NCBI RefSeq assembly: GCF_026239675.1
Contig: NZ_JAPIVQ010000007.1
Location: 1-64,000, forward strand
Direction of reading: 5' to 3'
DNA length: 64,000 bases
Source: Pedobacter sp. PLR
Lineage (GTDB): Bacteria; Bacteroidota; Bacteroidia; Sphingobacteriales; Sphingobacteriaceae
The notes beneath the pieces were generated by a model. That model saw only the letters and a program-made list of their open reading frames with translations, was not told the origin of the DNA and did not search any database. Of this stretch, positions 37,303-62,890 are shown in pieces; position 1 is the first letter of the stretch, and each line of letters starts with the position of its first letter. Made by a program: the position numbers and the translations under genes.

Positions 37303-40203
37303 ATGAAGAGCAGCCAAGGGAGATACCTCATATTATATTTTTTATTTGCGTTTATTTCCCTTGCTGTTAAAGCAGACGATATTAAAAGTATCGGGGTCCC
37401 ATATGTCCAAAATTACCCAAAGTCACTTTACTTGTCAGGCAATCAAAACTGGTCAGTCAGTAAAGGTAAAAACGGCATTATGTATTTTGGAAATGCACAG
37501 GGTTTGCTTACTTATGACGGTAAATACTGGCAACAATACAAGTTACCAAACCGGCAGATTGTAAGGTCTGTGCTCGCTGCTCCCTCCGGAATCATCTATA
37601 CCGGCGGTTTTGGAGAACTTGGCTACTGGTCTTATAAAAACGACAAATTAACCTATACCTCCTTAACGAAATTAGTTCCAAAGACTAACCTGGTAAAGGA
37701 CGAAATCTGGAAAATCTGTTCCGACGGGAAAAAGGTGATTTTTCAGTCTTTTTCTACCATTTACATCTACGAGAATCATAAGATTACAGCTATTAACAGC
37801 AGCAAACCCTTTCTCTTCCTCCACCAGGTGGGAAAACGGTTCTTTGTGGAAGTATTGAGCAGTGGGCTGTTTGAATTGCAGGGCGAACAACTGATCCCAT
37901 TAAAAGGCAGTAACCCGACCAATTCAACCGATGTATTGTCTATTTTGCCTTATCGGGACAACAAACTGCTCATTGGCACCAGTAAGGATGGCTTATTCCT
38001 ATACGATGGTCAAACCTTCATCCCCTTTAATACAGCTGCCAATAACTTTCTAAAAACCTTTCAGCTCAACAATGGGGTAAAGGTTTTAAATAAGTATTAT
38101 GCATATGGCACTATCTTAAACGGCTTAATCATCATTGATGAGCAGGGAAATATAGTGCAGCAGATCAACAAATCGAGCGGCCTGCAAAACAACACCGTAC
38201 TTAGTCTTTATGCCGATCAGGACCAAAACCTCTGGGCCGGGCTCGACAATGGGATAGACCGCATAGAATTAAACTCTCCGCTATACTTTTATTTCGATAA
38301 AACCGGTCAGTTTGGAACTGTTTATTCCAGTCTGATCTACAACAATACCATTTATTTAGGAACCAATCAGGGGCTATTCTATAGTCCATGGGTATCCGGA
38401 AAAAACACCTTCAATTCTTTTGATTTCAAACTGATTCCCCATTCACAGGGACAGGTATGGGAACTTACAGTAATTGACGGGCAATTGATCTGTGGACATA
38501 ACAATGGGACCTTTAATGTCAGGGGGAATAAACTGGAAAAAATATCCAGTGCCAACGGCGGCTGGACTATAAAAAAGCTCGATGACGGACAAGAATGTCT
38601 GATTCAAGGCACCTATAATGGCCTCGTCATTTATAAGAAGGATGCCCGGGGGATATGGCGCTACCACAACAAGGTGGCTAACTTTGATGCGCCTTCAAGA
38701 TATGTGGAAAGAGATGCAAAAGGAGATATTTGGGTAAGCCATGCCTATAAAGGACTGTATAAACTCACACTGAGTCCAGACCTGAGCAGGGTGATCTCCA
38801 CCAGAATCTACAATGAGAAAAACGGCTTACCAGACGATTACAACATCAACATCTTCAAAATAGAAAACAACCTGGTCTTTTCTTCAGATAAAGGCTTTTA
38901 TGTTTATGATGACATCAGCAATCGTTTTAAAAACTATGCTGAACTCAATAAAGCACTAAAAGGCTTTTCTACGGCTAACAAAATCATTAGTGCCGGTAAA
39001 TCAAAATACTGGTTTATTAACCGTGGTAAAATGGCCCTGGCACACCTGCAGGAAACGGGACAGCTTAGTATTGATTCCAACAGGTTCAACATTCTGGATG
39101 GAAGAATGGTGCAGTACTATGAAAACATCAGCAAAATCAGTGATAATATTTACCTGATCAGCGTTGATGATGGCTTTGTAATCTATAATGGCAATAACCG
39201 TCCTGAAAACCTTAAGAAACAAGATCTACCGCTGGTACTCATTAGAAAAATAGAAGACATCACTGATACCTATCAGGTGTTGAGTGAAATTGGGAACAGG
39301 GATACAAAAATGCAAATCCCTTATTCCAGAAATAACATTCGCATTTCCTATGCCCTACCCTATTACAGACAGGCTAAAATCAAGTTTCAATACTTTTTAG
39401 AGGGATATTCTAAACAATGGTCGGAATGGAGTACTGCTTCACAGAAAGATTTCACGAACCTTAGTAAAGGAAATTATACTTTCAGGGTGAGGGCTAAAAT
39501 CAATGACCAGGTGCTTCCTCAGGAAACCTCCTTTGAATTTCAGGTACTTCCACCATTTTATGCCAGCAACTGGGCTATCGCTTTTTATGTACTCTGTGGT
39601 ATTGCCTTATTTATTGCGGCGAAACGTCTTTATGAGCTCAAACTGAAAAGAGATCAGGAAGCCATTGCGAAGAAAATGCAGGCAGAAAAAGAGGTCTTCT
39701 TAAAGAAGGAAACAGAAGCGAATGAGCGCCAGATTATCAAGCTGCAAACCGAAAAGCTACAGGTAGAACTGGCTGGAAAAAACAGGGAACTGGCAAACTC
39801 GGCGATGAGTCTGGTTTATAAAAATGAGCTGCTGCAGAAGCTGAGTCAGGAGATTGCCAAACTAAAAGATGGCAATGGGAAACCACTTTCGGAAGACCAG
39901 TTGAGGAAGATTCAGAAGGTCATTGATGAGGGGATGAATGACGAACGCGACTGGCATTTGTTCGAGAGCAGTTTCAATGAAGCCCATGAAAGCTTCTTTA
40001 AAAAATTAAAGGCAAATCATCCGGACCTTGTTCCGAATGACTTGAAATTATGTGCCTATTTACACATGAATATGAGTAGTAAAGAAATGGCATCCTTACT
40101 TAACATTTCTCTGAGGGGAGTAGAAATCAGGAGATACAGACTCCGTAAAAAGCTGGTAATCCCTCATGACAAGAACCTTGTAGAGTTCTTAATGGAGTTA
40201 TAA
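37303..40203 (+). CDS. Membrane-spanning propeller sensor with C-terminal HTH
   Basis: A 966-residue one-component regulator. It has a signal peptide (1-24), beta-propeller repeats of the two-component-propeller type (about 40-640), a Y_Y_Y (triple tyrosine) domain (about 690-760), one transmembrane helix near 765-785, a cytosolic coiled coil (about 790-870) and a LuxR-like HTH at the C-terminus (ending with EMASLLNISLRGVEIRRYRL). No histidine kinase domain. It probably binds a periplasmic glycan fragment and switches the SusC/D operon directly downstream, as similar sensors do in other PULs. Confidence 0.88.
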   Translation: MKSSQGRYLILYFLFAFISLAVKADDIKSIGVPYVQNYPKSLYLSGNQNWSVSKGKNGIMYFGNAQGLLTYDGKYWQQYKLPNRQIVRSVLAAPSGIIYTGGFGELGYWSYKNDKLTYTSLTKLVPKTNLVKDEIWKICSDGKKVIFQSFSTIYIYENHKITAINSSKPFLFLHQVGKRFFVEVLSSGLFELQGEQLIPLKGSNPTNSTDVLSILPYRDNKLLIGTSKDGLFLYDGQTFIPFNTAANNFLKTFQLNNGVKVLNKYYAYGTILNGLIIIDEQGNIVQQINKSSGLQNNTVLSLYADQDQNLWAGLDNGIDRIELNSPLYFYFDKTGQFGTVYSSLIYNNTIYLGTNQGLFYSPWVSGKNTFNSFDFKLIPHSQGQVWELTVIDGQLICGHNNGTFNVRGNKLEKISSANGGWTIKKLDDGQECLIQGTYNGLVIYKKDARGIWRYHNKVANFDAPSRYVERDAKGDIWVSHAYKGLYKLTLSPDLSRVISTRIYNEKNGLPDDYNINIFKIENNLVFSSDKGFYVYDDISNRFKNYAELNKALKGFSTANKIISAGKSKYWFINRGKMALAHLQETGQLSIDSNRFNILDGRMVQYYENISKISDNIYLISVDDGFVIYNGNNRPENLKKQDLPLVLIRKIEDITDTYQVLSEIGNRDTKMQIPYSRNNIRISYALPYYRQAKIKFQYFLEGYSKQWSEWSTASQKDFTNLSKGNYTFRVRAKINDQVLPQETSFEFQVLPPFYASNWAIAFYVLCGIALFIAAKRLYELKLKRDQEAIAKKMQAEKEVFLKKETEANERQIIKLQTEKLQVELAGKNRELANSAMSLVYKNELLQKLSQEIAKLKDGNGKPLSEDQLRKIQKVIDEGMNDERDWHLFESSFNEAHESFFKKLKANHPDLVPNDLKLCAYLHMNMSSKEMASLLNISLRGVEIRRYRLRKKLVIPHDKNLVEFLMEL

Positions 40204-40453
40204 CACTACATCATTACTACACACACCCTGTCTTTTTGCCCCACAATCCTGCATTTACTGATCAGGTAACCTGGAGACCTATAAATCCTATTCCCATATC
40301 ACAAAGCCTATTTTTAGACTAAAAACCGCTATGGAAAACAGCCTAAAAACACTACACATCAATACTGACGTATTCATGTAGAGGTCAATTTCTTGCATTA
40401 ACCACGACAGTCACAGAGATTTAGCCTATCAAATAAACATAACCTAAACGAGC
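40204..40453. promoter_or_regulatory. PUL promoter region with CTAAAAA palindrome
   Basis: These 250 bases hold no gene. TTTTTAG-A-CTAAAAA at 40311-40325 is a 15-base palindrome, and CTAAAAAC recurs at 40343-40350, 24 bases after the copy in the right arm. This is a candidate operator for the HTH of the adjacent regulator. No exact -7 box was found. Confidence 0.4.
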
Positions 40454-43400
40454 ATGAAAAGAATCTTTACAAAATTTTCTGTTTTAGCATTCCTCTGTTT
40501 TCTTTTTAATTATTCTGCCTTTGCACAGCAGATTATTATAAAAGGAAAGGTGACAGACGGCGGTGATAAAACCACTATTCCAGCTGTAAGTATACAGGTA
40601 AAAGGAGCAGCAACAGGAACACAAACAGACGCCAATGGAAACTATTCCATCAGCGCTCCGGCGACTGCCACATTGGTATTCACTTATATCGGTTATACCA
40701 CACAAGAGGTACCGGTAAACAATAGAACTACAATTAATGTACCCATGACTTCCTCCTCACAGGAACTAGAACAGGTGGTGGTAGTTGGTTACGGTACACA
40801 ACGAAAAATCGATGTGACGGGTTCCGTCGCCACTATCAAAGGAGAAGAAATTTCCAAGCAAGCTTCTGTAAATCCGGTAAGTGCATTACAGGGAAAAGTT
40901 GCCGGAGTTTCGATCACCAATAATGGTGCTCCGGGTGCTGCACCACTTATCACAATCCGTGGTACTGGTACAGTATATGGTAACACCGGTGTACTATACG
41001 TAGTAGACGGTGTTTGGTACGATGATATCAACTTTCTGAATCCATCAGATATTTTCAATATGAGTATCCTGAAAGATGCCTCAAGTTTAGCTATCTACGG
41101 GATCAGAGCCGCCAACGGTGTGGTTTTAGTAACCACCAACAGGGGTAAAAAAGGCGATGCTATCGTGAGTTACAATGGAACATTTGGTTTGCAGAGTGTA
41201 ACCAACCCTGTGAAAATGGCAGATGCTACTCAATATGCTACGATTATTAATGAAATCTATGCTTCTAAAAATGAAGACCCACTATTCAAAGATCCTACTG
41301 CTTTTGGAAAAGGAACAGACTGGTATGGGCAAATACTTAGAAATGCACAGGTAAATAACCACCAGCTATCCATCAGTGGTGGTGGCGAAAAAAACATTTA
41401 CAACTTATCACTGGGCTATCTCGATCAGGATGGCGTAGTAAAGAGCAACAACTATAAACGCTACACTGCCAGATTAACCAGTGAATTTCAGGTATTGAAA
41501 CCCTTAAAAGTGGGTTATAATGTTTCTGCAACCGCAAGTAACTCCAAAGACATTGACAACGTTATATTTCGTCAGATGTATACTTCAGGACCTGTAGTCC
41601 CTGTTTATTATGCAGATCGTACTTATGGAGATCCTAATGATTTTGGTCTGGGTAGTGGCGCAGGTGCCAATCCTCAAGCTACTATTGATTTCTTCAATAG
41701 AAGGTCTAAAAACTATAAATTCACCGGAAATCTTTATGCGGAACTCGAAATCCTAAAAAGTTTAACTTTCAGAACCAGCTTTGGTGGTGATTTCTCCCAA
41801 GCTGAAGTAAGAAGTTATAGCCCGGTTTATAAAGCAACAAATGCACAGCGTAATGAGACCAGTCTGTTGGGAATCGACAGAACAGAAGATAGAAACTGGA
41901 TCGTTGAAAACACCCTGACTTATAAAAACACCTTTGGTGACCATAATTTAACGGTACTGGCAGGACAGACTGCACAACGTAACAAACAATATTTCATCAA
42001 TAGTAAGGCCTTAAATGTCCCATTCTCCAGTGAAGGAGACCTTTATCTGGCTTTAGGAAATGCAGCCGGACGTTCACTAACGGATGGTGGTAATTTACAA
42101 ACCGCAGCCTCTTACTTCGGTCGTGTAAACTATTCCTATAAAGATCGCTATCTGCTAAATGCTTCGATGCGTGCGGATGGTGCCTCACAATTTTATGCGA
42201 ATGGAAATCCATGGGGTTACTTCCCTTCTATCGGTGCAGGTTGGGTGATCAGTAACGAGCCCTTCATGCAGGATCAGCAGATTTTCAGTAATTTAAAAAT
42301 TCGCGGAAGCTGGGGTAAAGTCGGAAATGCAGGTGTTCCTGTAAATCCAACTACGCTTACCATCTCTCAAAAAGGTGGTTATGTCGCTTATTTCAATGGT
42401 GTCGCTTATACCGGTAAAAGTATCGACCAGATTACTCCTGCCTTTATCAATTGGGAACGCAGTTCAGGTACTGACATTGGCTTAGAAGCAGGGTTTTTAG
42501 CCAATAGATTGAGTATTGAAGCTGATTATTATAACAAAGAGACACAACAAGCCATCTTTGGAATTCCGGTATCAGCAGATATGGGATTAGGAGAAGCGAA
42601 AGAAATTGGCAATCAGGCCAACTTCAGAAACCGTGGATTTGAATTCACCGCCAACTGGAGAGATAAAACTGAAGGCGGATTTACCTATTCCATCAGTGGA
42701 AACTTCGGTTACAATCAAAACAAAGTAACTTCAGTAGTAACGGGTGAAAATCCGATCTATTCTGGTGGTGAAGGATTAGCCAATGGCTCCCTTGCAACAC
42801 GCACCGTTCTTGGAAGACCAATTGGCGAATTCTTCGGTTATAAAGTGGATGGTATCTTCCAAAATGCAGGAGAAGTTTCAGCCTCTGCTCAAAAAGATGC
42901 CATAGCCGGTGATTTCAGATATGTAGATCAAAATGGCGATGGTATCATAGACGGAAAAGACCGCATCACACTTGGAAATGCAAACCCTAAATTCAACTAT
43001 GCATTAAACACTAGTTTTGCTTATAAAAACTTCGACCTTTCTCTGGACATCCAGGGAGTTGCAGGAATCAGTATCTATAATGCAAACCTTGGTGTAAGGT
43101 ATGGTAATGAGAATTTCACTGAAGACTTCTTTAAAAACAGATGGCATGGTGAAGGGACTTCAAACACCTATCCTTCCGCAAATATAGGAACCACTAAAAA
43201 TTCAGCGCCAAACTCCTTCTTTGTCGAAAAAGGAGATTATATCAGATTAAGAAATGTACAAATCGGCTACACTTTACCTGGTACGTTGCTGAGCAAGTGG
43301 AAAATGCAAAAAGTAAGGGTATTTGCTAATGCTCAAAATCCGGTAAATCTATTTGGATACAGAGGATTTAGCCCGGAAATCGGGAAACCAACCGTGGGTA

Positions 43401-43486
43401 ATTATTCACCACTAGGTGCAGGTATAGATGCCAATGTATACCCACTCTATGCTACTTATAATTTAGGTCTAAACGTTACTTTTTAA
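40454..43486 (+). CDS. SusC/RagA-family TonB-dependent outer-membrane transporter
   Basis: A 1010-residue SusC-like importer: signal peptide (1-24, ending AFAQ), a CarboxypepD_reg-like domain (about 28-105), a linker with VVVVGYGTQ, a TonB-dependent plug (about 110-230) with the SusC-typical TIRGTG segment, then the 22-strand barrel ending in an aromatic residue (VTF). Forms the lidded pedal-bin pair with the SusD protein to import oligosaccharides. First gene of the PUL; 11 bases from susD. Confidence 0.96.
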   Translation: MKRIFTKFSVLAFLCFLFNYSAFAQQIIIKGKVTDGGDKTTIPAVSIQVKGAATGTQTDANGNYSISAPATATLVFTYIGYTTQEVPVNNRTTINVPMTSSSQELEQVVVVGYGTQRKIDVTGSVATIKGEEISKQASVNPVSALQGKVAGVSITNNGAPGAAPLITIRGTGTVYGNTGVLYVVDGVWYDDINFLNPSDIFNMSILKDASSLAIYGIRAANGVVLVTTNRGKKGDAIVSYNGTFGLQSVTNPVKMADATQYATIINEIYASKNEDPLFKDPTAFGKGTDWYGQILRNAQVNNHQLSISGGGEKNIYNLSLGYLDQDGVVKSNNYKRYTARLTSEFQVLKPLKVGYNVSATASNSKDIDNVIFRQMYTSGPVVPVYYADRTYGDPNDFGLGSGAGANPQATIDFFNRRSKNYKFTGNLYAELEILKSLTFRTSFGGDFSQAEVRSYSPVYKATNAQRNETSLLGIDRTEDRNWIVENTLTYKNTFGDHNLTVLAGQTAQRNKQYFINSKALNVPFSSEGDLYLALGNAAGRSLTDGGNLQTAASYFGRVNYSYKDRYLLNASMRADGASQFYANGNPWGYFPSIGAGWVISNEPFMQDQQIFSNLKIRGSWGKVGNAGVPVNPTTLTISQKGGYVAYFNGVAYTGKSIDQITPAFINWERSSGTDIGLEAGFLANRLSIEADYYNKETQQAIFGIPVSADMGLGEAKEIGNQANFRNRGFEFTANWRDKTEGGFTYSISGNFGYNQNKVTSVVTGENPIYSGGEGLANGSLATRTVLGRPIGEFFGYKVDGIFQNAGEVSASAQKDAIAGDFRYVDQNGDGIIDGKDRITLGNANPKFNYALNTSFAYKNFDLSLDIQGVAGISIYNANLGVRYGNENFTEDFFKNRWHGEGTSNTYPSANIGTTKNSAPNSFFVEKGDYIRLRNVQIGYTLPGTLLSKWKMQKVRVFANAQNPVNLFGYRGFSPEIGKPTVGNYSPLGAGIDANVYPLYATYNLGLNVTF

Positions 43487-43497
43487 TTGATCCGGAA

Positions 43498-44985
43498 ATG
43501 AAAATATATAACCATATCGCGCTGCGAAAAGCATGCGCAATAGTCATCACAGGTACGATCTTACTCAGCACTTCATGTACAAAAAGCTTCCTTGATGTTG
43601 ATCCTCAAGCCAAACAACCTGCAGTAACATTTTGGAAAACTCAGGATGATGCACAAGCCGGCGTGTATGCCATTTATGGAAATTTACGCAGCTGGGCAAA
43701 TGTAGCCTTTCCTTCACTTGCCGTAGAAAGCATTGCTTCTGATGAGGCCGATAAAGGAAGTTCGACAAATGACGCCAGTTATCTGAACGACTTTGAAAAC
43801 TTCACGGTCACCTCTACAGATGGACAGGTACTTGGATTTTGGGAAGGCCAATACCAGAATATCAATCTTTGTAATCAGGTATTGGATAATATCCCGGGCA
43901 TAGAAATGGATCCTAACTTAAAGAGCCGCCTCCTTGCGGAAGCTAAATTTGTAAGGGCTTATTCTTATTTCAGACTAGTGAGGGCTTTTGGTGGTGTAAG
44001 GTTACACCTGACCATTCCTAAAACCCCGGCACAGTTTAACATGCCAAGAAGTTCGAGAGAAGAAGTTTATGCCGCTATAGAAAAAGACCTTGATGAAGCC
44101 GCAGCGGTACTGCCGGTAAGCTATCCAGCTGCTGATCGTGGTCGTGCAACTCAAGGCGCTGCATTAGCCCTGCATGCCAAAGTAGCCATGTATCAAAAGA
44201 AATGGGCGCAGGTACTCAGCTTAACCAATACCGTAATGACGCAAGGTTATAGCCTGCTGCCAGATTATGAATCTGTGTTCCGTTTAAATCATGAAAACAG
44301 TTCAGAATCGATATTTGAGATTCAATGCGAATATAATCCTGGTACAAAAGACGCGAGTAACAGTCAGTATGCACAGGTACAGGGCGTAAGATCCCAAGCC
44401 GGTTATTGGGGGTTTAATACACCATCACTAGACCTCGCAAACGCTTTTGAAACCGGAGATCCGCGTAGAGAAGGTACTATTCTGTTCGTAGGCACTTCCA
44501 CTCCACAAGGCGATTTAATCACTTCTGCTCCCGGAGATCCGGTAAGATACAACCATAAACCGTATGTTCCTTTTGCTACGGCTTATGACAATGATAACCC
44601 AAGAGGGGGGCAGCAAAATGTACGGGTGATACGTTACTCAGATGTATTGCTGATGAATGCTGAGGCTGCAAATGAATTGAATAATTCTGGTCAGGCCATT
44701 GCCTCTTTGGAACAGGTGAGACTAAGAGCAAGACAGGGAAATCCAGCAATTCTTCCTAAAGTAACCACTACAGACCAGACTGCACTACGCGCAGCCATTT
44801 ATCATGAAAGACGTGTTGAACTGGCCATGGAGTCAGATCGTTATTTCGATGTGATTCGTCAGGGACGCGCCGCAGCAGTATTTGGACCTAAAGGCTGGAA
44901 AGCAAATAAAAATGAAGTATGGCCAATTCCAAATACTCAGATTGAGCTAAGCGTAGGTGTCCTTACACAAAACCCAGGTTATTAA
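43498..44985 (+). CDS. SusD/RagB-family glycan-binding lipoprotein
   Basis: A 495-residue SusD-like protein. The lipobox LLSTSC (Cys about 27) anchors it on the cell surface. SusD-like N- and C-terminal parts show TPR-type helices and the family's C-terminal RQGRAA and NEVWPIPNTQIELS segments. It closes over the SusC barrel and selects the glycan. Ligand cannot be read from sequence. Confidence 0.96.
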   Translation: MKIYNHIALRKACAIVITGTILLSTSCTKSFLDVDPQAKQPAVTFWKTQDDAQAGVYAIYGNLRSWANVAFPSLAVESIASDEADKGSSTNDASYLNDFENFTVTSTDGQVLGFWEGQYQNINLCNQVLDNIPGIEMDPNLKSRLLAEAKFVRAYSYFRLVRAFGGVRLHLTIPKTPAQFNMPRSSREEVYAAIEKDLDEAAAVLPVSYPAADRGRATQGAALALHAKVAMYQKKWAQVLSLTNTVMTQGYSLLPDYESVFRLNHENSSESIFEIQCEYNPGTKDASNSQYAQVQGVRSQAGYWGFNTPSLDLANAFETGDPRREGTILFVGTSTPQGDLITSAPGDPVRYNHKPYVPFATAYDNDNPRGGQQNVRVIRYSDVLLMNAEAANELNNSGQAIASLEQVRLRARQGNPAILPKVTTTDQTALRAAIYHERRVELAMESDRYFDVIRQGRAAAVFGPKGWKANKNEVWPIPNTQIELSVGVLTQNPGY

Positions 44986-45004
44986 TCTCATTTAACGAAA
45001 AGAA

Positions 45005-45832
45005 ATGAAAACAAGATTATTCTATATACTAACAGCGGCAACCCTATCTCTTGCGGTTAGCTCCTGTACAAAGAAATTCGATCCTTCGAGCTATGCGCCG
45101 GCACTAAACATTGGTGGCTATAGCAGCACCAAAGAAGTGGCCTCAGCTAACCTGGTTGCACACTGGGCTTTCGATAACAGCTTAATTGACAGCGTTTCAA
45201 AAGTTAATGGTGTAGCCACCAACACCTCTTTTTCGGCAGGAACCAAAGGTAACGCCTTACAAGGATCTCCTACCGGATATGTGATCTCCGACACGCCGGC
45301 AGAAGTGCAGAAACTAAAAAGTTTCACGACGACCTTATGGTTCAACTCGGACTTGAATACCGGTGCAACAGGCCTGATTGACATTGCAAATTCCGCAGCC
45401 GGATGGGGTAATTTAACCATATTTCTGGAAAACAATGGTGATGCCGACAATGGTATTATTCAATTCCGTGTGAACAACAATGGCGTGCTTACCGCATCAG
45501 AAAACTATAAGGTTCCCGGCATCTGGAAAAAATGGACGCACCTGGCTTTGAGTTATGATCAGGTAAGTTCCACTTTCAACATTTACATCAATGGAGGGAA
45601 ATTAAAGGCCCTGACTGTCCCTAACAATGGGCCATTAACTTTCCAGAATGCGACAAAAATGGTTTTTGGAACCTTGCAGTTTCAAACTACTCCAAGTTTA
45701 ACCAGTGCAGGTGGCAAAGAATCATGGGCAGCTAATCTGAATGGTAAGCTGGATGAAGTCAGAATCTATAATAAAGCATTGACCACTGATGAAATCGGTG
45801 CGATATCTAAACTGGAAAGTAAAGGAAAATAA
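45005..45832 (+). CDS. LamG/concanavalin-like surface lipoprotein
   Basis: A 275-residue lipoprotein (lipobox SSC, Cys21). From about residue 52 it is a LamG-type jelly roll with the AHWAFDNSLIDS start, KGNALQG and a DEVRIYNKALT end. In PULs such proteins act as additional surface glycan-binding proteins (SusE/F-like position). No catalytic residues are visible. The next step is a strong hairpin at 45853-45882 before the GH144 gene. Confidence 0.88.
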   Translation: MKTRLFYILTAATLSLAVSSCTKKFDPSSYAPALNIGGYSSTKEVASANLVAHWAFDNSLIDSVSKVNGVATNTSFSAGTKGNALQGSPTGYVISDTPAEVQKLKSFTTTLWFNSDLNTGATGLIDIANSAAGWGNLTIFLENNGDADNGIIQFRVNNNGVLTASENYKVPGIWKKWTHLALSYDQVSSTFNIYINGGKLKALTVPNNGPLTFQNATKMVFGTLQFQTTPSLTSAGGKESWAANLNGKLDEVRIYNKALTTDEIGAISKLESKGK

Positions 45833-45852
45833 TCCAATAGCTGATCGTTATG

Positions 45853-45882
45853 AAGCGTTGCAGGTTTAATTCTGCAACGCTT
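45853..45882 (+). terminator. Hairpin inside the PUL operon
   Basis: Exact 11-base arms AAGCGTTGCAG and CTGCAACGCTT with an eight-base loop, after the LamG gene. The T content downstream is low, so partial termination or processing that lowers enzyme-gene expression relative to SusC/D is likely. Confidence 0.65.
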
Positions 45883-45944
45883 ATTGCTATCCCTATTTAG
45901 CCGATCCCCAATTATTGTGCTTCAACAGCCTCCAACTTATCACT

Positions 45945-47294
45945 ATGAAAAGAAACTTACGAAATACCTTTTTAATATTAAGTCTGATCTGCTCGGTTTA
46001 TCAGCTGAAAGCACAACAGAAAATCACCGAAAGCATCAAACCAGATCTCAAAATAAGGAAGAACTTAACAGATGATCAATTACTGGACCTGGTTCAAAAA
46101 CAAACCTTTCGTTATTTCTGGGATTTTGCACATCCTGTAAGCGGGATGGCCCGGGAGCGTAGTAATATCGCTTTTGAATATGGCAATGAGGTAGTCACCA
46201 CAGGTGGCACCGGATTTGGAATTATGGCCACCATTGTAGCTGCCGAAAGACATTTTATCAGTCGCGAACAAGCAGCGGCAAGAACAAAAAAGATTGTAGA
46301 CTTCTTATGGAAAGCAGATATGTTTCATGGGGCTTTCCCCCATTGGTTAAATGGAGAAACAGGGAAGGTGATCCGGTTTAGCCCAAAAGATGATGGGGCT
46401 GACCTCGTAGAAACTTCTTTACTTTTCCAGGGACTTTTGACTGCTGCACAATACTACACTGCCGATAATGCGACAGAAAGAGACCTTAGAAACAAGATAC
46501 AATGGATGTGGGAAGGTATCGAATGGAACTGGTTTACCCAAAACCAGAAAGTACTTTACTGGCATTGGAGCCCCAATAATGGCTGGAGTATGGACCATCA
46601 AATCAGAGGTTACAATGAATGTCTGATCACCTACGTGCTGGCGGCATCCTCTCCAAAACATTCGATAGATCCGAAAGTTTACCATGAAGGCTGGGCGATG
46701 AGCAATACTTTTTTCAATGGCAAAAAATTTAATGACATCACTTTACCACTGGGTTTTGACGGTGGTGGACCATTATTCTTCTCTCAGTACTCTTATTTAG
46801 GATTAGATCCCAGAGGATTGAAAGACAGTTATGCAGATTATTGGGAACAAAACAGAAATCACACACTGATCAACAGAGCATATTGCTTAGAAAACCCAAA
46901 ACAGTACAAAGGTTATGGCACAAACAGCTGGGGCTTAACGGCAAGCGATAGCTGGCAAGGTTATGCGGCACATTCGCCAACAGAAGACCTGGGAGTTATC
47001 AGCCCTACCGCAGCCTTATCCGCATTCCCATACACTCCGGAGTATTCCATGCAGGCTTTAAGACATTTTTACGAGGACAAGGGTGATCAGCTATGGACAC
47101 AATATGGTTTTGTGGATGCCTTTAGTGAACAGCACAACTGGGTGGCAAAATCACACCTGGCTATAGATCAGGGACCGATCATCATCATGATAGAAAACTA
47201 CCGCAGCGGTTTATTGTGGAAGCTGTTTATGAGTAATCCAGCTGTACAAAAAGGGCTGACAAAATTGGGATTCAGTACGCCTGCCATCAAATAG
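45945..47294 (+). CDS. GH144-type beta-1,2-glucanase (glucoamylase-family fold)
   Basis: A 449-residue secreted glycoside hydrolase with the PF10091 (glucoamylase-like) domain used by family GH144. Signal peptide (about 1-24, ending KAQQ), then an alpha/alpha-barrel with FRYFWDFAHP, WWHWSPN-like and MDHQIRGYNECL segments. The founding GH144 enzyme is the endo-beta-1,2-glucanase of Chitinophaga pinensis; others release sophorose. I start at MKRNLRNTFL (45945) because the longer frame lacks a signal peptide. Exact mode (endo or exo) cannot be told. Confidence 0.87.
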   Translation: MKRNLRNTFLILSLICSVYQLKAQQKITESIKPDLKIRKNLTDDQLLDLVQKQTFRYFWDFAHPVSGMARERSNIAFEYGNEVVTTGGTGFGIMATIVAAERHFISREQAAARTKKIVDFLWKADMFHGAFPHWLNGETGKVIRFSPKDDGADLVETSLLFQGLLTAAQYYTADNATERDLRNKIQWMWEGIEWNWFTQNQKVLYWHWSPNNGWSMDHQIRGYNECLITYVLAASSPKHSIDPKVYHEGWAMSNTFFNGKKFNDITLPLGFDGGGPLFFSQYSYLGLDPRGLKDSYADYWEQNRNHTLINRAYCLENPKQYKGYGTNSWGLTASDSWQGYAAHSPTEDLGVISPTAALSAFPYTPEYSMQALRHFYEDKGDQLWTQYGFVDAFSEQHNWVAKSHLAIDQGPIIIMIENYRSGLLWKLFMSNPAVQKGLTKLGFSTPAIK

Positions 47295-47396
47295 TCTGAA
47301 CTCTGATGGCTGATGTATCCTAATTTTTACCAGTCCCGCGTGTTAAAGGACAAAGAAACCTTTATACTCGCGAAAACACAGTTAATTAAACAAAAA

Positions 47397-48056
47397 ATGA
47401 AAAGATTTTACCACTTCTTCCTTGTATTAGCCCTGAGCTCCGGATTCGTTAAAGCACAACAAAAACCAGCATTTTGGAAAGAAATCCAGGACTTCAAACA
47501 TAAAGACAGCATTGCTATGCCTTCTAAAAATGGCATCTTATTCGTTGGCAGCTCCTCTTTTGAGAAATGGGCAGCGCTGGAAACTGTATTCAAAGATTAT
47601 CAGGCGATCAACAGAGGATTTGGCGGCTCTACGCTTGCACAAGCAAATTACTATATCGCCGATCTGGTTTATCCTTACCAACCTCGTCAGGTGGTGATCT
47701 ACAGTGGGGAAAATGACATCGCTACTGACGGCGTAACTGCGATTGAAACATTAAACCGCTTTGCTACTTTTTTCAATAACATCAGACTTAAATATCCGGA
47801 GGTTCCTGTCCTGTATATTTCCATCAAAGACAGTCCTTCGAGAACCAGATATGCCGCTACAAATGCACATACCAATCTCCTGATCAAAGACTATCTGCAA
47901 CATTACCCAAACACAAAATTTGTAGACGTTAACCGTAAAATGTTGCACAATAATGCCCTTCGTCCGGAGCTTTTTCTGGAAGATATGCTGCACATGAAAC
48001 CGGAAGGCTATGCCATCTGGATCAAAGAAATCAAACCATTCCTGGTTAAACCCTAA
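47397..48056 (+). CDS. SGNH/GDSL-family esterase
   Basis: A 219-residue secreted SGNH hydrolase: signal peptide (1-20, ending VKAQ), block I GSSSF with the nucleophile at about Ser53, block II Gly in NRGFGG, block III GEND (the Asn/Gly oxyanion pair) and block V DMLHM with catalytic Asp and His. It removes acyl groups. In this PUL it may strip substituents such as succinyl groups from beta-1,2-glucans, but the target is inferred. Started at MKRFYHFF; the earlier ATG at 47313 lies in non-signal sequence. Confidence 0.88.
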   Translation: MKRFYHFFLVLALSSGFVKAQQKPAFWKEIQDFKHKDSIAMPSKNGILFVGSSSFEKWAALETVFKDYQAINRGFGGSTLAQANYYIADLVYPYQPRQVVIYSGENDIATDGVTAIETLNRFATFFNNIRLKYPEVPVLYISIKDSPSRTRYAATNAHTNLLIKDYLQHYPNTKFVDVNRKMLHNNALRPELFLEDMLHMKPEGYAIWIKEIKPFLVKP

Positions 48057-48080
48057 ATAGACAACTATAATAAAACAATA

Positions 48081-50378
48081 ATGAGAAAAGCGAAGTACTT
48101 ATTTTTCCTGGCCGCGATTTTTAGCTTTAGCAGTAGTTCTGCGCAACAGAAAAAAGCGAATTCCGATCAGCAGATGAACATTTTCATAAAAGACCTGCTT
48201 TCCAAAATGACTTTGGAAGAGAAAATCGGCCAGTTAAACCTGTTAACAGGAGGTGAGGCCACTACAGGCTCTGTGGTCAGCACTGATGTGGAAAGCAAAA
48301 TCAAAAAAGGTCAGGTAGGCGGAATGTTTAGTTTAACTACGCCTGCCAGAATCCGCAAAGCACAGGAAATTGCAGTTACCCAAACGCGCTTGAAAATTCC
48401 CATCATTTTTGGCCAGGATGTGATCCATGGTTATAAAACTACTTTTCCGATTCCATTGGCTTTATCCTGCACCTGGGATTTAGCCCTGATTGAGAAAACA
48501 GCAAGAATTGCCGCTGTTGAGGCCACTGCAGACGGATTAAACTGGACCTTCTCCCCTATGGTGGATATTTCCAGAGACCCACGATGGGGTAGAATTTCTG
48601 AAGGTTCCGGAGAAGATACCTACCTCGGTTCGGAAATCGGCAAAGCCATGGTTAAAGGATACCAGGGCGACGATCTGTCTAAATATAATACCATGATGGC
48701 TTGTGTAAAACACTTCGCCTTATATGGTGCTGCCGAATCTGGCAGGGATTACAATACCACAGACATGAGCCTGAACAGAATGTACAATGAGTATCTTCCT
48801 CCATACAAAGCCGCATTAGATGCAGGTGCTGGTAGTATCATGACTTCCTTCAATGACATTAATGGTGTTCCCGCTACGGCCAACAAATGGTTGATGACCG
48901 ATTTATTACGCAAGCAATGGGGCTTTAATGGCCTTGTAGTAACGGATTATACCGCCGTAAATGAGTTAATTGACCATGGATTGGGAGACCTGCAAACCGT
49001 TTCTGCCCTTGCCCTAAATGCAGGAGTAGACATGGATATGGTAGGAGAAGGATTTCTAAGTACTTTAAAAAAATCAGTTCAGGAAGGAAAAGTAACAGAA
49101 CAACAGGTCACTAATTCTTGTCGCCTGGTATTGGAAGCGAAATATAAGCTGGGTCTATTCGAAGATCCTTTCCGTTACTGCAATGAAGAACGTGCAAAAA
49201 AAGAAATCCTTAAACCGGAACACCTGAAAATAGCCAGAGAAACCGCTGCACAAAGTTTTGTACTGCTAAAAAACCAGGGACAAGTACTTCCCTTAAAGAA
49301 AACAGGTACGGTTGCTTTAATCGGCCCATTGGCAAATACAGGAACAAATATGCCTGGAACCTGGAGTGTAAACAGTGACTTGGAGAAGACCATTTCCCTT
49401 TTACAAGGATTAAAAGACAATGCCGGTCCCGGCCTTAAAATATTGCATAGTGCAGGATCTAACCTTTTAACCGACCCTGAATACCAAAAAAGAGCAACCA
49501 TGTTCGGTCGTGATCTTCCAAGAGATTCCCGTACAGCAGAAGAAATGATTGCTGAAGCAGTTGCTACCGCTAAAAATGCAGATGTAGTGATCGCTGCCCT
49601 TGGTGAAAGTTCGGAAATGACTGGTGAAAGTTCCAGCCGTACCAACCTGGACATTCCAGAGAATCAACAACTTTTATTAAAGGCCTTACTGAAAACAGGA
49701 AAACCAGTGGTGCTGGTCTTATTTACCGGCAGACCCCTGACCCTGAAATGGGAAGATGAAAATGTTCCGGCCATTTTAAATGTATGGTTTGGCGGTACAG
49801 AAGCTGCAAATGCCATTTCCGATGTGTTATTTGGAAAAGTAAATCCATCAGGAAAACTGACCGCTACTTTCCCACAAAACGTAGGACAGATTCCATTGTA
49901 CTACAGCCATAAAAATACCGGCAGACCACTGGAAGAAGGAAAATGGTTCAGCAAATTCAGGTCGAATTACCTCGATGTAAGCAACGAACCCTTATACCCT
50001 TTTGGGTACGGATTAAGTTATACCACTTTTAACTACTCCAATCTAAGGCTAAGCAAAAACAGCTTTAAACCTGGTGAGCTCATTTCGGCGACCGTTACCC
50101 TGAAAAATACCGGAGCTTATACCGGTAAAGAAACGGTGCAGTTGTACATCCGTGATTTAGTCGGCAGCATGACCCGTCCGGTTAAAGAGTTAAAAGGATT
50201 TGAAAAAATCGAGCTTAAAGCCGGAGAAAGTAAAGAAGTTACTTTTAAAATTTCAGAAGAAGACCTGAAGTTCTTTAATGAAGAACTAAAGTTTGTGGCA
50301 GAACCCGGCGACTTCAAATTATTTATAGGCAGCAATTCAAGGGATAATTTAGAAATACCGTTTAAATTGACCCATTAA
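48081..50378 (+). CDS. bglX: Glycoside hydrolase family 3 beta-glucosidase
   Basis: A 765-residue GH3 enzyme. It has a signal peptide (1-22), an (alpha/beta)8 domain with the nucleophile Asp289 in VVTDYTAV, a second alpha/beta domain holding the acid/base in the SSEMTGESS region, and a C-terminal fibronectin III-like domain. Architecture matches BglX. With the GH144 gene it would split sophorose and longer beta-1,2-glucooligosaccharides to glucose in the periplasm. Last gene before the terminator. Confidence 0.95.
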   Translation: MRKAKYLFFLAAIFSFSSSSAQQKKANSDQQMNIFIKDLLSKMTLEEKIGQLNLLTGGEATTGSVVSTDVESKIKKGQVGGMFSLTTPARIRKAQEIAVTQTRLKIPIIFGQDVIHGYKTTFPIPLALSCTWDLALIEKTARIAAVEATADGLNWTFSPMVDISRDPRWGRISEGSGEDTYLGSEIGKAMVKGYQGDDLSKYNTMMACVKHFALYGAAESGRDYNTTDMSLNRMYNEYLPPYKAALDAGAGSIMTSFNDINGVPATANKWLMTDLLRKQWGFNGLVVTDYTAVNELIDHGLGDLQTVSALALNAGVDMDMVGEGFLSTLKKSVQEGKVTEQQVTNSCRLVLEAKYKLGLFEDPFRYCNEERAKKEILKPEHLKIARETAAQSFVLLKNQGQVLPLKKTGTVALIGPLANTGTNMPGTWSVNSDLEKTISLLQGLKDNAGPGLKILHSAGSNLLTDPEYQKRATMFGRDLPRDSRTAEEMIAEAVATAKNADVVIAALGESSEMTGESSSRTNLDIPENQQLLLKALLKTGKPVVLVLFTGRPLTLKWEDENVPAILNVWFGGTEAANAISDVLFGKVNPSGKLTATFPQNVGQIPLYYSHKNTGRPLEEGKWFSKFRSNYLDVSNEPLYPFGYGLSYTTFNYSNLRLSKNSFKPGELISATVTLKNTGAYTGKETVQLYIRDLVGSMTRPVKELKGFEKIELKAGESKEVTFKISEEDLKFFNEELKFVAEPGDFKLFIGSNSRDNLEIPFKLTH

Positions 50379-50466: not shown

Positions 50467-51258
50467 ATGAGCCGCATCAAAACAACACTCTCCATCCTAC
50501 TCCTGGTCTGTAGCCTGAGTTCAAAAGCGCAGGATCTTAAAAAGTATGATAAAGGAAGCTTTATCAAGGGCAAGGATAGTATTTCCTACCGCATTCTCTT
50601 TCCGGAGAATTTCAGTGCGGATAAAAAATACCCTATCCTGTTTTTTTTACATGGAAGTGGAGAGCGCGGCAATGACAATGAGAAACAATTGACACATGGT
50701 GGTAAGCTATTCCTTAAACCGGAGATCCGCAAGCAATTCCCGGCCATCATCGTCTTCCCGCAATGTACAGAAGACAGCTTCTGGTCAAATGTCAGGTTTG
50801 ATACCACTGCTCATGGAAACCGGTCGTTCAACTTTCAAAAGAGAGGAAAGCCGACAAAATCGATGAAAGCTTTACTGGGTATGATTGATAACTTTTTAGA
50901 AAAGCCTTATGTGAACCATGATCAGGTTTATGTTGGCGGTCTTTCTATGGGTGGTATGGGTACTTATGAATTACTGAGACGTAAGCCTAAGCTTTTCGCA
51001 GCGGCGATTGCCATTTGTGGTGGCGACAATGTAGCCAACGTTCAGAAATATAAAAATGTTCCCTTATGGATCTTTCACGGGGAGAAAGATGAGGTAGTTC
51101 CCGTGGTCTTTTCTACCATGATTTCGGATCAGCTCAAAGTGTTGGGAAAAGAACCTAAGCTTACTTTGTATCCGGATGCCCATCACAACAGTTGGGACGC
51201 TGCATTTGCAGATCCCAAACTCTTGCCATGGTTATTTTCTAATCAAAAGAAACAATAG
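50467..51258 (+). CDS. Secreted alpha/beta-hydrolase, PHB-depolymerase/feruloyl-esterase-like
   Basis: A 263-residue alpha/beta hydrolase: signal peptide (1-22, ending SKAQ), oxyanion segment LHGSGERG, nucleophile Ser160 in GLSMGG, acid Asp in GEKDEVVP and His in DAHHNSW. Similar to secreted esterases often found near PULs (COG4099). Has its own promoter directly after the PUL terminator, so its link to the PUL is by position only. Substrate unknown; not a glycosidase. Confidence 0.87.
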   Translation: MSRIKTTLSILLLVCSLSSKAQDLKKYDKGSFIKGKDSISYRILFPENFSADKKYPILFFLHGSGERGNDNEKQLTHGGKLFLKPEIRKQFPAIIVFPQCTEDSFWSNVRFDTTAHGNRSFNFQKRGKPTKSMKALLGMIDNFLEKPYVNHDQVYVGGLSMGGMGTYELLRRKPKLFAAAIAICGGDNVANVQKYKNVPLWIFHGEKDEVVPVVFSTMISDQLKVLGKEPKLTLYPDAHHNSWDAAFADPKLLPWLFSNQKKQ

Positions 51259-53374: not shown

Positions 53375-54034
53375 ATGAACAGAAGAGAAGCAGTGAAAAG
53401 TGTTGCCTTTTTAATGGGAGGCGCATTGTCTGCAACTACTATTGGAGTATTTTTAGATAGTTGTACTTCACCATCTAATAAAACATCCGGGAACTTATTT
53501 TCTGCCGATCAGGAAAAGATTATCACGGAAGTTGCAGATATCATTATCCCTACGACGAGTACGCCAGGGGCTAAAGCAGCTGGAGTTGGTCCATTCATCG
53601 CGATGATGATGAAGGATTGCTACCCGGAAGATGCTCAAAAAGCATTTGTTAAAGGTCTGGAAGATCTGGAAAAACAGTCTCAGGACACTTTCAAAAAATC
53701 ATTCCTTGAAATTTCTGTACCTCAGCGTCAGGAACTCTTAAACAAAGTTAGAGAGGCTACGATTGCAGCAAATAAAACTGAAAAAGACGAATTAGAGAAA
53801 CAACAAGAAAACATCACTCAGAAAAAATCTGAAAAGGAAGCTCCGGGCAACGCAATGACGCCAAAGGACAAACCTAAAACCACACCTCAATTCTTCGCCA
53901 TCATCAGGGACTTAACCTTACTGGGTTATTTTACTTCCGAAATTGGTGCTACCAAGGCTATGGCCTATGTAGAAATCCCTGGCCGTTACGACGGCGATGT
54001 GCCTTTAAAACCAGGTCAAAAAGTTTGGTCATAA
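53375..54034 (+). CDS. Gluconate 2-dehydrogenase subunit 3 family protein (Tat signal)
   Basis: A 219-residue small subunit of the kind that partners GMC-type sugar dehydrogenases. The N-terminus has a Tat-like leader (NRREAVKS, then a hydrophobic stretch) ending FLDSC, so it may also be lipid-anchored. The GMC gene, which has no leader of its own, follows after 20 bases; in related FAD-glucose dehydrogenases the small subunit carries the catalytic one through the Tat system as hitchhiker. A Lys/Glu-rich insertion near 130-165 is unusual. Confidence 0.9.
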   Translation: MNRREAVKSVAFLMGGALSATTIGVFLDSCTSPSNKTSGNLFSADQEKIITEVADIIIPTTSTPGAKAAGVGPFIAMMMKDCYPEDAQKAFVKGLEDLEKQSQDTFKKSFLEISVPQRQELLNKVREATIAANKTEKDELEKQQENITQKKSEKEAPGNAMTPKDKPKTTPQFFAIIRDLTLLGYFTSEIGATKAMAYVEIPGRYDGDVPLKPGQKVWS

Positions 54035-54053
54035 ACCTTTTAGAAATTAAACA

Positions 54054-55757
54054 ATGAGCAATTTAAATACGAAAGCAACTGCGCAAAACACTTATGATGC
54101 GATTGTTGTAGGATCAGGAATCAGTGGTGGCTGGGCTGCAAAAGAGTTAACAGAGAAAGGTTTAAAAGTTCTGATGCTGGAAAGAGGCAGGAACGTTGAA
54201 CACATCAAGGACTATACTACGGCTATGAAAAAGCCATGGGAATTTGAGCACCGTGGAAGATTAACGGAAGCACAAAAAGAGTCTCACCCTGTACAAAAAA
54301 GAGATTATCCTTATCAGGAATTTAATGAGAGCTTCTGGGTGAATGACCTGGAATGCCCATATACAGAAGTAAAACGTTTTGACTGGTACCGTGGTTTCCA
54401 CGTAGGTGGTAAATCATTAATGTGGGGCCGTCAGAGTTACCGCTTAAGTGACCTGAACTTTGAAGAAAATGCAAAAGATGGTCATGGTGTAGATTGGCCA
54501 ATCAGATATAAAGACATTTCGCCATGGTATGATTATGTAGAGAAATTTGCAGGAATCAGCGGCCAGGCAGAAAACTATCCTCACTTCCCTGACGGGCAGT
54601 TCCTTCCACCGATGGACATGAACGTTGTGGAGAAAGATGTAAAGAAAAGAATTGAAAGTAAATGGAATAAATCCAGAATCCTGACTATTGGTCGTACAGC
54701 TAACTTAACTGTGGAGCATGGTGGAAGGGGTAAATGTCAATACCGTAACCTTTGTAGCAGAGGATGTCCGTTTGGCGCTTATTTCAGTACACAATCTTCT
54801 ACCCTACCGGCGGCTGTGGCGACGGGTAACTTAACGCTTCGTCCTTACTCATTGGTGAATACCATCATCTATGATAAAGAAACACAGAAAGCGAAAGGTG
54901 TAGTTGTGATTGATTCAGAAACTAATGAGCACATCGAATACTTTGCAAAAATTGTATTCGTTAATGGTTCTACTTTAGGTTCTACGTTCTTATTGTTGAA
55001 CTCTACCTCACCAGAACATCCAAATGGATTAGGTAATGGTAGTGGTGAACTTGGACACAACCTGATGGATCACCATTTCCGTTGCGGTGCTTCGGGAAGA
55101 GCGGAAGGCTTTGATGACAAATACACTTTCGGCAGAAGAGCCAATGGTATTTACATTCCCCGATATAGAAATATTGGTAATGACAAACGCGATTACGTAA
55201 GGGGCTTCGGTTACCAGGGTGGCGCGAGTCGCGGAAACTGGCATGCTGATGTCGCTGAAATGGCATTTGGTGGTGATTTCAAAGACCAGATGACAGTACC
55301 AGGTGCATGGAATATGGGCTTAGGTGGTTTCGGAGAGTCTCTTCCTTACCATGAGAACCGTGTTTATATCGATCCTGGTAAAAAAGATAAATGGGGACAG
55401 TCTGTTTTGGCAATTGATTGTGAATTCAAGGAAAACGAGCAGAAAATGCGCGGAGATATGATGAACGATGCTGCTGAAATGCTGGAAGCCGCAGGTATGA
55501 AAGATGTGAAAACATACGACAATGGTTCTACTCCAGGTATGGCTATCCATGAAATGGGTACTGCGCGTATGGGTCTTGATCCTAAAACCTCTGTGTTAAA
55601 CAAATGGAACCAGATGCACGAAGTGAAAAACGTATTCGTAACTGATGGTTCTTGTATGCCTTCTGCTGCTTGTCAGAATCCTTCATTAACATATATGGCA
55701 TTGACCGCAAGAGCTTGTGATTTTGCAGTTAGTGAACTTAAAAAAGGTAACCTTTAA
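54054..55757 (+). CDS. GMC-family FAD sugar dehydrogenase with Fe-S motif
   Basis: A 567-residue GMC flavoprotein. FAD-binding GSGISGG lies at about residues 20-26. Cys228-x5-Cys234-x3-Cys238 (CQYRNLCSRGC) has the spacing of the 3Fe-4S site of FAD-dependent glucose dehydrogenases, and the C-terminal active-site region has HEMGTARMG and CQNPSLT. It likely oxidises the C3 hydroxyl of a glycoside or sugar and passes electrons through the cluster to the cytochrome c encoded downstream. It lacks a signal peptide and probably follows the Tat small subunit out. Confidence 0.9.
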   Translation: MSNLNTKATAQNTYDAIVVGSGISGGWAAKELTEKGLKVLMLERGRNVEHIKDYTTAMKKPWEFEHRGRLTEAQKESHPVQKRDYPYQEFNESFWVNDLECPYTEVKRFDWYRGFHVGGKSLMWGRQSYRLSDLNFEENAKDGHGVDWPIRYKDISPWYDYVEKFAGISGQAENYPHFPDGQFLPPMDMNVVEKDVKKRIESKWNKSRILTIGRTANLTVEHGGRGKCQYRNLCSRGCPFGAYFSTQSSTLPAAVATGNLTLRPYSLVNTIIYDKETQKAKGVVVIDSETNEHIEYFAKIVFVNGSTLGSTFLLLNSTSPEHPNGLGNGSGELGHNLMDHHFRCGASGRAEGFDDKYTFGRRANGIYIPRYRNIGNDKRDYVRGFGYQGGASRGNWHADVAEMAFGGDFKDQMTVPGAWNMGLGGFGESLPYHENRVYIDPGKKDKWGQSVLAIDCEFKENEQKMRGDMMNDAAEMLEAAGMKDVKTYDNGSTPGMAIHEMGTARMGLDPKTSVLNKWNQMHEVKNVFVTDGSCMPSAACQNPSLTYMALTARACDFAVSELKKGNL

Positions 55758-55760
55758 TAT

Positions 55761-55800
55761 AAACCTGCATATTGGTAAAATCCAGTATGCAGGTTTTATG
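55761..55800 (+). terminator. Terminator-like hairpin after the GMC gene
   Basis: Exact 11-base arms AAACCTGCATA (55761-55771) and TATGCAGGTTT (55786-55796), followed by TATGTTT. It splits the locus into a dehydrogenase pair and the following eight genes, or tunes read-through. Confidence 0.75.
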
Positions 55801-55859
55801 TTTAAACCCTGCTAAGTCGGTTTAGACACTTTAAAATCAACAAAAAACAAAATATTCTG

Positions 55860-57020: not shown

Positions 57021-57025
57021 ACATC

Positions 57026-58078: not shown

Positions 58079-58097
58079 TAATTAATACACCAATAAG

Positions 58098-58484: not shown

Positions 58485-58511
58485 CCTGAACCACAGAACC
58501 AAATATAAACC

Positions 58512-59957: not shown

Positions 59958-59991
59958 ACACCACCCTTTTTTTAACTTAAAAAGAAAAACT

Positions 59992-60687: not shown

Positions 60688-60696
60688 CCGGATTGT

Positions 60697-60716: not shown

Positions 60717-60760
60717 TTAACATTAAAAAATAAACCAAAATATAAAACAAGAAATAAACA

Positions 60761-62880: not shown

Positions 62881-62890
62881 ATCAAAAGTT

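Follow-up and report, generated by a model that had tools for sequence, protein, structure and literature searches.

We found that a 64,000-nucleotide stretch of the genome of Pedobacter sp. PLR (contig NZ_JAPIVQ010000007.1, positions 1 to 64,000; hereafter the window) carries what is probably a Pedobacter-type polysaccharide utilization locus (PUL) for beta-1,2-glucan, a polymer that other bacteria make, arranged for work in the periplasm and combining control by a sensor with deacylation. A preliminary description had placed seven genes in order on the plus strand at 37303-50378, encoding a sensor, SusC, SusD, a LamG lipoprotein, a GH144 enzyme, an SGNH hydrolase and a GH3 enzyme, and our Pfam and NCBIfam searches agreed with all seven and with their order. 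Beyond that description, the open reading frame (ORF) listing and profile searches revealed an eighth plus-strand gene after the GH3 gene, at 50467-51258, which encodes an alpha/beta-hydrolase esterase, a second candidate deacylase. The adjacent susC/susD pair with its glycan-degrading genes makes the locus a PUL, and since the same gene order recurs across named Pedobacter genomes, the arrangement is not due to chance. The locus is of a known kind; its new and testable parts are the candidate switch, the pair of candidate deacylases, the module boundary and the absence of a second GH144 gene.

Backbone enzymes

The predicted endo-beta-1,2-glucanase gene (45945-47294, plus strand) encodes a protein scoring 278 bits, against a cut-off of 27, with PF10091 ('Glycoamylase'), the Pfam family containing GH144. 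The protein is 63% identical over 413 columns to the nearest solved chain, 4gl3, and 58% identical over 418 columns to CpSGL, the founding GH144 of Chitinophaga pinensis. The seven residues tested in CpSGL, D135, D139, E142, E211, F268, Y330 and D400, of which F268 and Y330 are clan residues, are all identical in the window enzyme, whose activity is predicted; in CpSGL, according to a passage of PMC12102758, changes at E211, D135, D139 and E142 cut activity drastically and a change at D400 leaves enough of it.

The GH3 gene (48081-50378, plus strand) encodes a predicted exo-beta-glucosidase of the BglX type, its score of 931 bits lying well above the cut-off of 666. Its best solved chains were JMB19063 (3u48, 3u4a), 9urf, 5tf0 and 5xxl, the last of which is listed as Periplasmic beta-glucosidase and is presumably the beta-1,2-glucosidase of Bacteroides thetaiotaomicron. 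D289 aligns with the nucleophile, Y290, R615 and F626 correspond to Y262, R587 and F598 of JMB19063, and the residues of the Lin1840/JMB19063-type +1 subsite are kept in kind. The counterpart of R615 in Lin1840, Arg572, is described in a passage of PMC4757417 as important in sophorose binding, and the substrates given there for Lin1840 are sophorose and laminaribiose, not cellobiose or gentiobiose. Because Lin1840 cleaves both of the former, the +1-subsite test points to beta-1,2 or beta-1,3 linkages. The residue tests on GH144 and GH3 give good support to the proposal that the locus serves beta-1,2-glucan.

Relatives of the locus

Related loci were taken as the best 80 of at least 590 confirmed matches from a scan of bacterial genomes with the window GH144 protein, and are thus the nearest loci and not a random sample. 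Counts out of 80 refer to genes in the same-strand run around the GH144 match, the genes being named by cluster or by the window gene that they matched best in BLAST, with one or a few members per cluster family-scanned. GH3 genes occurred in 58 runs, SusD in 57, SusC in 52, GH43 in 46, LamG in 37, SGNH in 33, the sensor in 24, the alpha/beta esterase in 22 and a GMC oxidoreductase in 14; two or more GH144 genes per run were present in 55 loci. Thirteen loci had less than 6 kb of downstream sequence, where misses may be contig ends, and SGNH was found in 31 of the remaining 67. The closest named relatives among the matches listed were Pedobacter polysacchareus (L002), Pedobacter sp. KBW06 (L003) and P. 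steynii (L004).

Localization and the single GH144 gene

The transport and binding genes comprise a SusC-type TonB-dependent importer (40454-43486; TIGR04056, 849 bits), a SusD-type surface lipoprotein assigned by Pfam (43498-44985; lipobox-like LLSTSC) and a LamG-fold lipoprotein that is likely to bind glycans at the surface (45005-45832; Laminin_G_3), all on the plus strand. Our lipobox rule recognized 53 of 55 SusD and none of 49 SusC proteins; an earlier rule, which caught 35 of the 55 SusD proteins, was dropped. By this rule, lipobox-like sequences were rare in the window-type GH144 (4/80), absent from SGNH (0/33) and rare in GH3 (2/62), and the window GH144 itself has a signal peptide lacking a lipobox, so that it is probably periplasmic. 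Many relatives also encode a longer GH144 paralogue, consisting of an Ig-like domain and GH144 in the sole member scanned (from L002), which was lipobox-like in 36 of 53 cases, with 11 of the 17 misses appearing lipoprotein-like by eye. In the whole genome of the window strain, a point beyond the preliminary description, we found a single PF10091 gene; the second, lipoprotein-type GH144 of a two-tier GH144 PUL is therefore missing, beta-1,2-glucanases of other families not having been searched for. Because of this lack, backbone cleavage in this strain is predicted to be periplasmic. SusC import has size limits. The periplasmic glucans of Escherichia coli have a degree of polymerization of 5-12 according to a passage of PMC10514313, and glucans of this size would fit import before cleavage.

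It is possible, if doubtful, that the locus is instead a decaying or scavenging remnant, in which the surface endo-glucanase has been lost and the strain uses fragments made by others, being unable to start on the polymer. The frequency of the lipobox-like paralogue and of runs with two or more GH144 genes, set beside the single gene of the window genome, would agree with such a loss, as would the close relative L002, which has a 92% identical GH144 and keeps both genes. All remaining genes of the locus are intact, however, and the loci of L003, L006, L009, L010, L012 and L013 are likewise without a second GH144, which is therefore a common state in Pedobacter-type loci; the small size of some natural periplasmic glucans, such as those of E. 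coli cited above, also argues against a remnant. A single search of the window genome, made without a positive control, gave no match to the GH43 of L003, so that the GH43 present in many relatives seems to be missing too, again a point beyond the preliminary description.

Candidate deacylases

The SGNH/GDSL hydrolase (Lipase_GDSL_2; 47397-48056, plus strand) is likely to be a periplasmic sugar O-acyl esterase. Its listed ORF starts at 47313; the likely start at 47397, which gives a signal peptide beginning MKRFYHFF, was chosen, like the ATG of GH144 at 45945, from signal peptides and relatives. Residues G51, S52, S53, S54, G76, G77, N106, D196 and H199 are kept in all 34 sequences (the window protein and 33 homologues), and these supply the Ser, Gly, Asn and Asp-x-x-His blocks, by which we take the SGNH hydrolases to be recognized, within an SGNH fold. 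A structure model built from the window protein and 31 of the 33 homologues was confident (predicted local distance difference test score, 92.7). The gene lies directly upstream of GH3 in 30 of the 33 loci, following GH43 in 23 and GH144 in seven; two of the other copies are at the locus end and one is elsewhere (L080). The SGNH-GH3 pair is a concrete candidate for the removal of acyl decorations in a beta-1,2-glucan pathway.

The preliminary description had suggested that this enzyme could remove succinyl or similar groups. The conserved catalytic residues and the place before GH3 lend partial support to a deacylase, while the choice of succinyl fared less well, since the closest folds with an assigned function belong to sialate O-acetylesterases (7pzg: Z 25.5, root-mean-square deviation 1.9 A, 188 residues), followed at lower scores by CE3, platelet-activating factor acetylhydrolases and acetyl xylan esterases. 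With O-acetyl esterases nearest in fold, acetyl would be at least as likely as succinyl. The sialate O-acetylesterase of Phocaeicola (Bacteroides) vulgatus (7pzg, 6njc) shares the SGNH fold at Z of about 25, but has about 18% identity to the window protein, which sits with GH144 and GH3.

The chances seem to us evenly divided on whether the SGNH protein is unconnected with succinyl, acting instead as an O-acetyl esterase or on some other glycan. The fold ranking just given speaks for this, as does the presence of SGNH paralogues in other settings. In a tree of 37 GH144-linked and nine unlinked copies, on the other hand, the linked copies clustered, requiring four label changes where shuffled labels needed 8.4 and none of 500 shuffles came down to four, though well-supported branches force at least three changes, so that the linked copies do not form a single clade; 12 rows of this tree were hand-chosen, nine of them as seemingly unlinked, and it is not a random sample. 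The adjoining GH3 gene likewise argues against another glycan, the partner being therefore a gluco-oligosaccharide pathway. As to acetyl, the fold does not tell the acyl group, and the basic residues R130, K144 and R149, kept in 34 of 34 sequences, could bind a carboxylate.

The idea that SGNH is specific for beta-1,2-glucan was rejected, nine copies having been found in other settings with no GH144 in the stretch of about 13 kb fetched for them; ten neighbour genes of five of the unlinked copies were family-scanned. Among 14 SGNH matches of at least 50% identity in other genomes of the family sample, eight lay within 9 kb of a listed GH144, the GH144 place of the other six being outside the listed matches (positions compared by eye). 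In the second candidate deacylase, the alpha/beta hydrolase, S160, D208 and H240, which we take to be the catalytic set, are invariant in an alignment of 24 rows, which comprises the window protein together with every relative found (24) except L016.

Sensor and candidate operator

The sensor gene (37303-40203, plus strand) encodes a Reg_prop propeller and a Y_Y_Y domain by Pfam, followed, in a by-eye reading, by one membrane span and a coiled coil, and has a C-terminal end resembling a helix-turn-helix (HTH). The earlier proposal of a propeller sensor with an HTH holds for the sensing part; the HTH matches are weak (Sigma70_r4_2, E 0.0003; GerE, E 0.01), both falling under the curated cut-off. 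No kinase or receiver family appeared among its Pfam matches at E values up to 10. Hybrid two-component systems (HTCSs) are defined by histidine kinase and receiver domains. The window sensor shares the Reg_prop and Y_Y_Y sensing part with the HTCSs of Bacteroides PULs but differs in showing neither of these domains among its Pfam matches and in its weak HTH match; from its domain content, it looks like a one-component membrane regulator.

The gap between the sensor and susC contains two exact, inverted copies of the 16-base motif CTACATNAWTACNNCA, a candidate operator defined from an alignment of this gap in the window and five loci. Copy 1 lies at 40206-40221 on the plus strand and copy 2 at 40366-40381 on the minus strand, the latter ending about 70 bases before the susC start. 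They are the only exact matches in the 5.8-Mb genome; 18 further matches have one mismatch, giving a total of 20, little different from the 17 of a reversed-pattern control. In held-out sensor-SusC gaps, the motif was present with at most one mismatch in 17 of 19, exactly in 11 of 19, and in two or more copies in 12. At the same stringency it was found in none of 23 regions of 300 bases upstream of SusC genes (22 loci) with no sensor directly upstream, a set that includes L015, whose distant sensor is too far upstream for the rule and which has no motif, as well as an additional SusC gene from each of L013 and L021, where it is the first SusC that has the sensor. Nor was it found in any of four fetched regions with a sensor paralogue of 31-32% identity. 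A locus of the same genus with rearranged order (L092, 2380-15518) has SGNH and the alpha/beta hydrolase upstream of the sensor and holds SGNH, the alpha/beta hydrolase, sensor, SusCD, GH144 and GH3 together, LamG being the exception; both motif copies are present there with one mismatch each. The paired motif thus tracks the sensor gene, which supports the earlier claim that the locus has its own sensor.

It seems unlikely to us that the sensor does not bind the motif pair and that common descent has preserved it as a promoter or RNA element instead. In favour of this are the nearness of one copy to the susC start and the fact that the loci with the motif are mostly Sphingobacteriaceae. Against it, the gap diverges except for the inverted copies, which persist at a spacing of 149-162 bases. 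In addition, SusC genes with no sensor whose products are 55-68% identical to that of the window (L005, L027, L052, L062, L075 and L077) have no motif upstream, and a Chitinophagaceae locus with a sensor (L042) has one copy at one mismatch. If the pair is the sensor's site, the switch can be named, as two 16-base sites and one sensor gene, making induction directly testable.

Stem-loop at the transport/enzyme boundary

Between the LamG and GH144 genes, at 45853-45882 (plus strand), lies a stem-loop of 12 pairs, whose score was reached by none of 300 mononucleotide shuffles of the gap. When a strong stem was defined as one in which pairs plus GC pairs come to at least 15 within 100 bases after the stop, a threshold set after the result for the window gap had been seen, such stems were found at 39 of 56 transport-to-enzyme boundaries, namely 13/20 from LamG to GH144, 13/20 from SusD to GH144 and 13/16 from LamG to an FG-GAP gene; the place is kept in relatives and the sequence changes. 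Elsewhere, strong stems occurred at 2/55 SusC-to-SusD, 5/36 SusD-to-LamG, 3/57 GH144-to-GH144 and 2/30 SGNH-to-GH3 boundaries. The stem-loop therefore comes after whichever transport or binding gene is last. Since the boundary between GH3 and the alpha/beta hydrolase also shows a strong stem in 6 of 14 cases, the element may mark module ends in general. No matching description of a stem-loop after susD was found in the portions of the openly licensed literature consulted.

The FG-GAP/UnbV_ASPIC protein of these boundaries, of about 1100 residues, is encoded in L036 (2159-5428) and in 23 further loci, often directly after LamG in the fuller GH144 loci, and was lipobox-like in 17 of 21 cases (the L036 member was family-scanned). 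A sigma-70 promoter scan gave 20 sites where shuffles led one to expect 37.1, and was therefore uninformative; terminator-like sites numbered 27 compared with 14.5; Rfam gave no match in the window at gathering level.

Proposed pathway and substrate

We propose that SusD and the LamG lipoprotein would bind beta-1,2-glucan fragments, or the small periplasmic glucans of other bacteria, at the surface, from where SusC would import them. In the periplasm, GH144 would cut the backbone into oligosaccharides, SGNH and perhaps also the alpha/beta hydrolase would strip acyl groups that would otherwise block the exo-acting GH3, and GH3 would then release glucose. The propeller of the sensor, located in the periplasm, probably binds oligosaccharides, and the sensor probably turns on susC through the two 16-base sites, inverted with respect to each other, that precede this gene. 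The sequence itself establishes the genes and their order, the conservation of catalytic residues, the kinds of signal peptide, the two motif copies, the stem-loop and the single PF10091 gene of the genome; the substrate, the acyl substrate, the localization and the direction of control are inferred from it.

Several observations weigh against this proposal. The nearest solved chain to GH144, 4gl3, bears the name 'putative glucoamylase' and no other; SGNH relatives at 46-50% identity occur in other settings, four of them beside another SusC and a sensor paralogue, and others lie near GH5, GH31/branching-enzyme or LptD/CinA genes, so the SGNH family is not specific for glucan. L031, L080 and L015, whose sensors are more distant (37-55% identical), lack the motif. 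The window was itself among the sequences used to define the motif; the loci with no sensor are mostly more distant, and the comparison of loci with and without a sensor is partly confounded with relatedness. On the side of the enzymes, a Lin1840-type pocket accepts laminaribiose as well, and JMB19063 was formerly assigned to cellulose, an assignment doubted by the authors (both in the passage of PMC4757417). In Bacteroides xylanisolvens, one GH144 PUL includes a beta-1,2-galactosidase that is inactive on beta-1,2-gluco-oligosaccharides, as reported in a passage of PMC11739564, and this case rules out association with GH144, taken alone, as proof of substrate.

The galactosidase case also opens the alternative that the backbone is another beta-1,2-linked or a mixed glycan, such as a beta-1,2-galactoside or a beta-1,3/1,2-glucan, for which the activity of the GH3 clade on laminaribiose and the GH43 added in 46 of the 80 related loci could also be cited. 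We think this quite improbable, as Pfam identified no GH43 or GH35 among the eight window genes (nor any GH94 or sulfatase) and beta-1,2-linked glucose is what the closest characterized enzymes of both GH144 and GH3 cleave. The GH43 cluster itself lies mostly between GH144 and SGNH/GH3, as in L003 (11894-13645); its sole scanned member also carries an F5/8 type C domain.

Comparison with known systems

Both symbiosis with plants and plant disease involve periplasmic and cyclic beta-1,2-glucans, and to our knowledge little is known of their recycling in soil. The novelty that the preliminary description had implied is, at the level of the locus, reduced by a passage of PMC6499787, in which GH144 PULs of Bacteroidetes are already named among the abundant ones and described as targeting beta-1,2-glucan. 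The SusCD pair and GH144 are common to those PULs and to the window locus; the marine ones contain sulfatases, of which the eight window genes include none, and that passage names no esterase with GH144, whereas the window locus has both SGNH and the alpha/beta hydrolase. The same source notes, as a general statement, that acetylation is common in plant polysaccharides on land. In the openly licensed literature, supplements excluded, SGNH with sophorose, or GH144 with GDSL, was not found together among the matches listed; an esterase in a GH144 locus may already be in print.

The cluster of Listeria innocua has a sophorose-cleaving GH3 (passage in PMC4757417) and that of Ignavibacterium album has GH144 genes (passage in PMC8861115), as does the window. 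Both, however, rely on ABC transport and GH94-type enzymes in these accounts, unlike the window locus with its SusCD, hydrolases and lack of GH94, though a TonB importer has been guessed at for the Ignavibacterium cluster (PMC8861115).

Decoration removal and 3-keto genes

Some relatives carry further genes that may act on decorations. With one or two members of each cluster family-scanned, a PF01663 phosphodiesterase-like cluster was present in 4 of the 80 loci (three inside the GH144 run), an EEP-type (PF03372) phosphatase cluster in five (all inside) and a GH30 cluster in 23 (22 inside). The best PDB matches of the GH30 proteins were 2wnw and glucosylceramidases and then 5ngk, which we take to be a beta-1,6-glucanase. 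Genes of the PF01663 or EEP type inside GH144 runs lie, for example, at L063 11273-12508, L071 11264-12499 and L036 12749-13585. Phosphoglycerol, succinate and phosphoethanolamine are carried by E. coli periplasmic glucans, according to the passage of PMC10514313, and removal of phosphoglycerol or phosphoethanolamine groups would call for genes such as these phosphodiesterase-like and phosphatase ones.

The GMC genes in 14 runs belonged in ten cases to Flavihumibacter, Ferruginibacter or Chitinophagaceae and in four to Bacteroidota/Bacteroidetes. In the 14 genomes, which were searched because GMC is present at the locus, the best GMC copy was the one in the GH144 locus in 12, being either the L037 query or a protein 73-78% identical to it, and other copies reached up to 65% identity (positions compared by eye). 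Within the genus of the window strain, GMC and GH144 lay within 20 kb of each other in 30 of 34 sampled GH144 genomes, not so in two, with two more having no listed GH144 place (by-eye reading); in one genome of the genus (G071), GMC is present and GH144 absent. Taking this linkage as proof of joint function was rejected, because yebC and an epimerase gene separate the two and the linkage is explained by common ancestry of the site.

Together, the phosphodiesterase-like, GH30 and 3-keto-pathway genes in the runs of some relatives suggest substituted periplasmic glucans as substrates. A wider reading, speculative and in our estimate rather improbable, is that soil Bacteroidota use their GH144 loci to process the substituted periplasmic glucans of Proteobacteria rather than bare beta-1,2-glucan. 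Decorations would be removed by the SGNH and alpha/beta-hydrolase deacylases and, in some relatives, by the type I phosphodiesterase or EEP-type phosphatase and a glucosylceramidase-like GH30; in Chitinophagaceae and their kin, GMC oxidoreductase, Gfo/Idh and 3-keto-disaccharide-hydrolase genes would provide a second, oxidative 3-keto route that breaks the glucosidic bond. The version in the window would then be a reduced one, followed 2 kb downstream by a cluster of the 3-keto type.

That cluster, at 53375-63763 on the plus strand, encodes a Gluconate_2-dh3 subunit, a GMC oxidoreductase, a Gfo/Idh protein, a sugar isomerase-like protein, a second Gfo/Idh protein, a 3-keto-disaccharide hydrolase, an MFS transporter and two more isomerase-like proteins, a gene content that suggests a pathway for 3-keto-glycosides next to the PUL. 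A similar gene set is found in the glycoside-dehydrogenase operon of Agrobacterium, in which an eliminase, a putative hydratase and a Gfo oxidoreductase turn 3-keto-glucoside into glucose, as described in a passage of PMC10628242.

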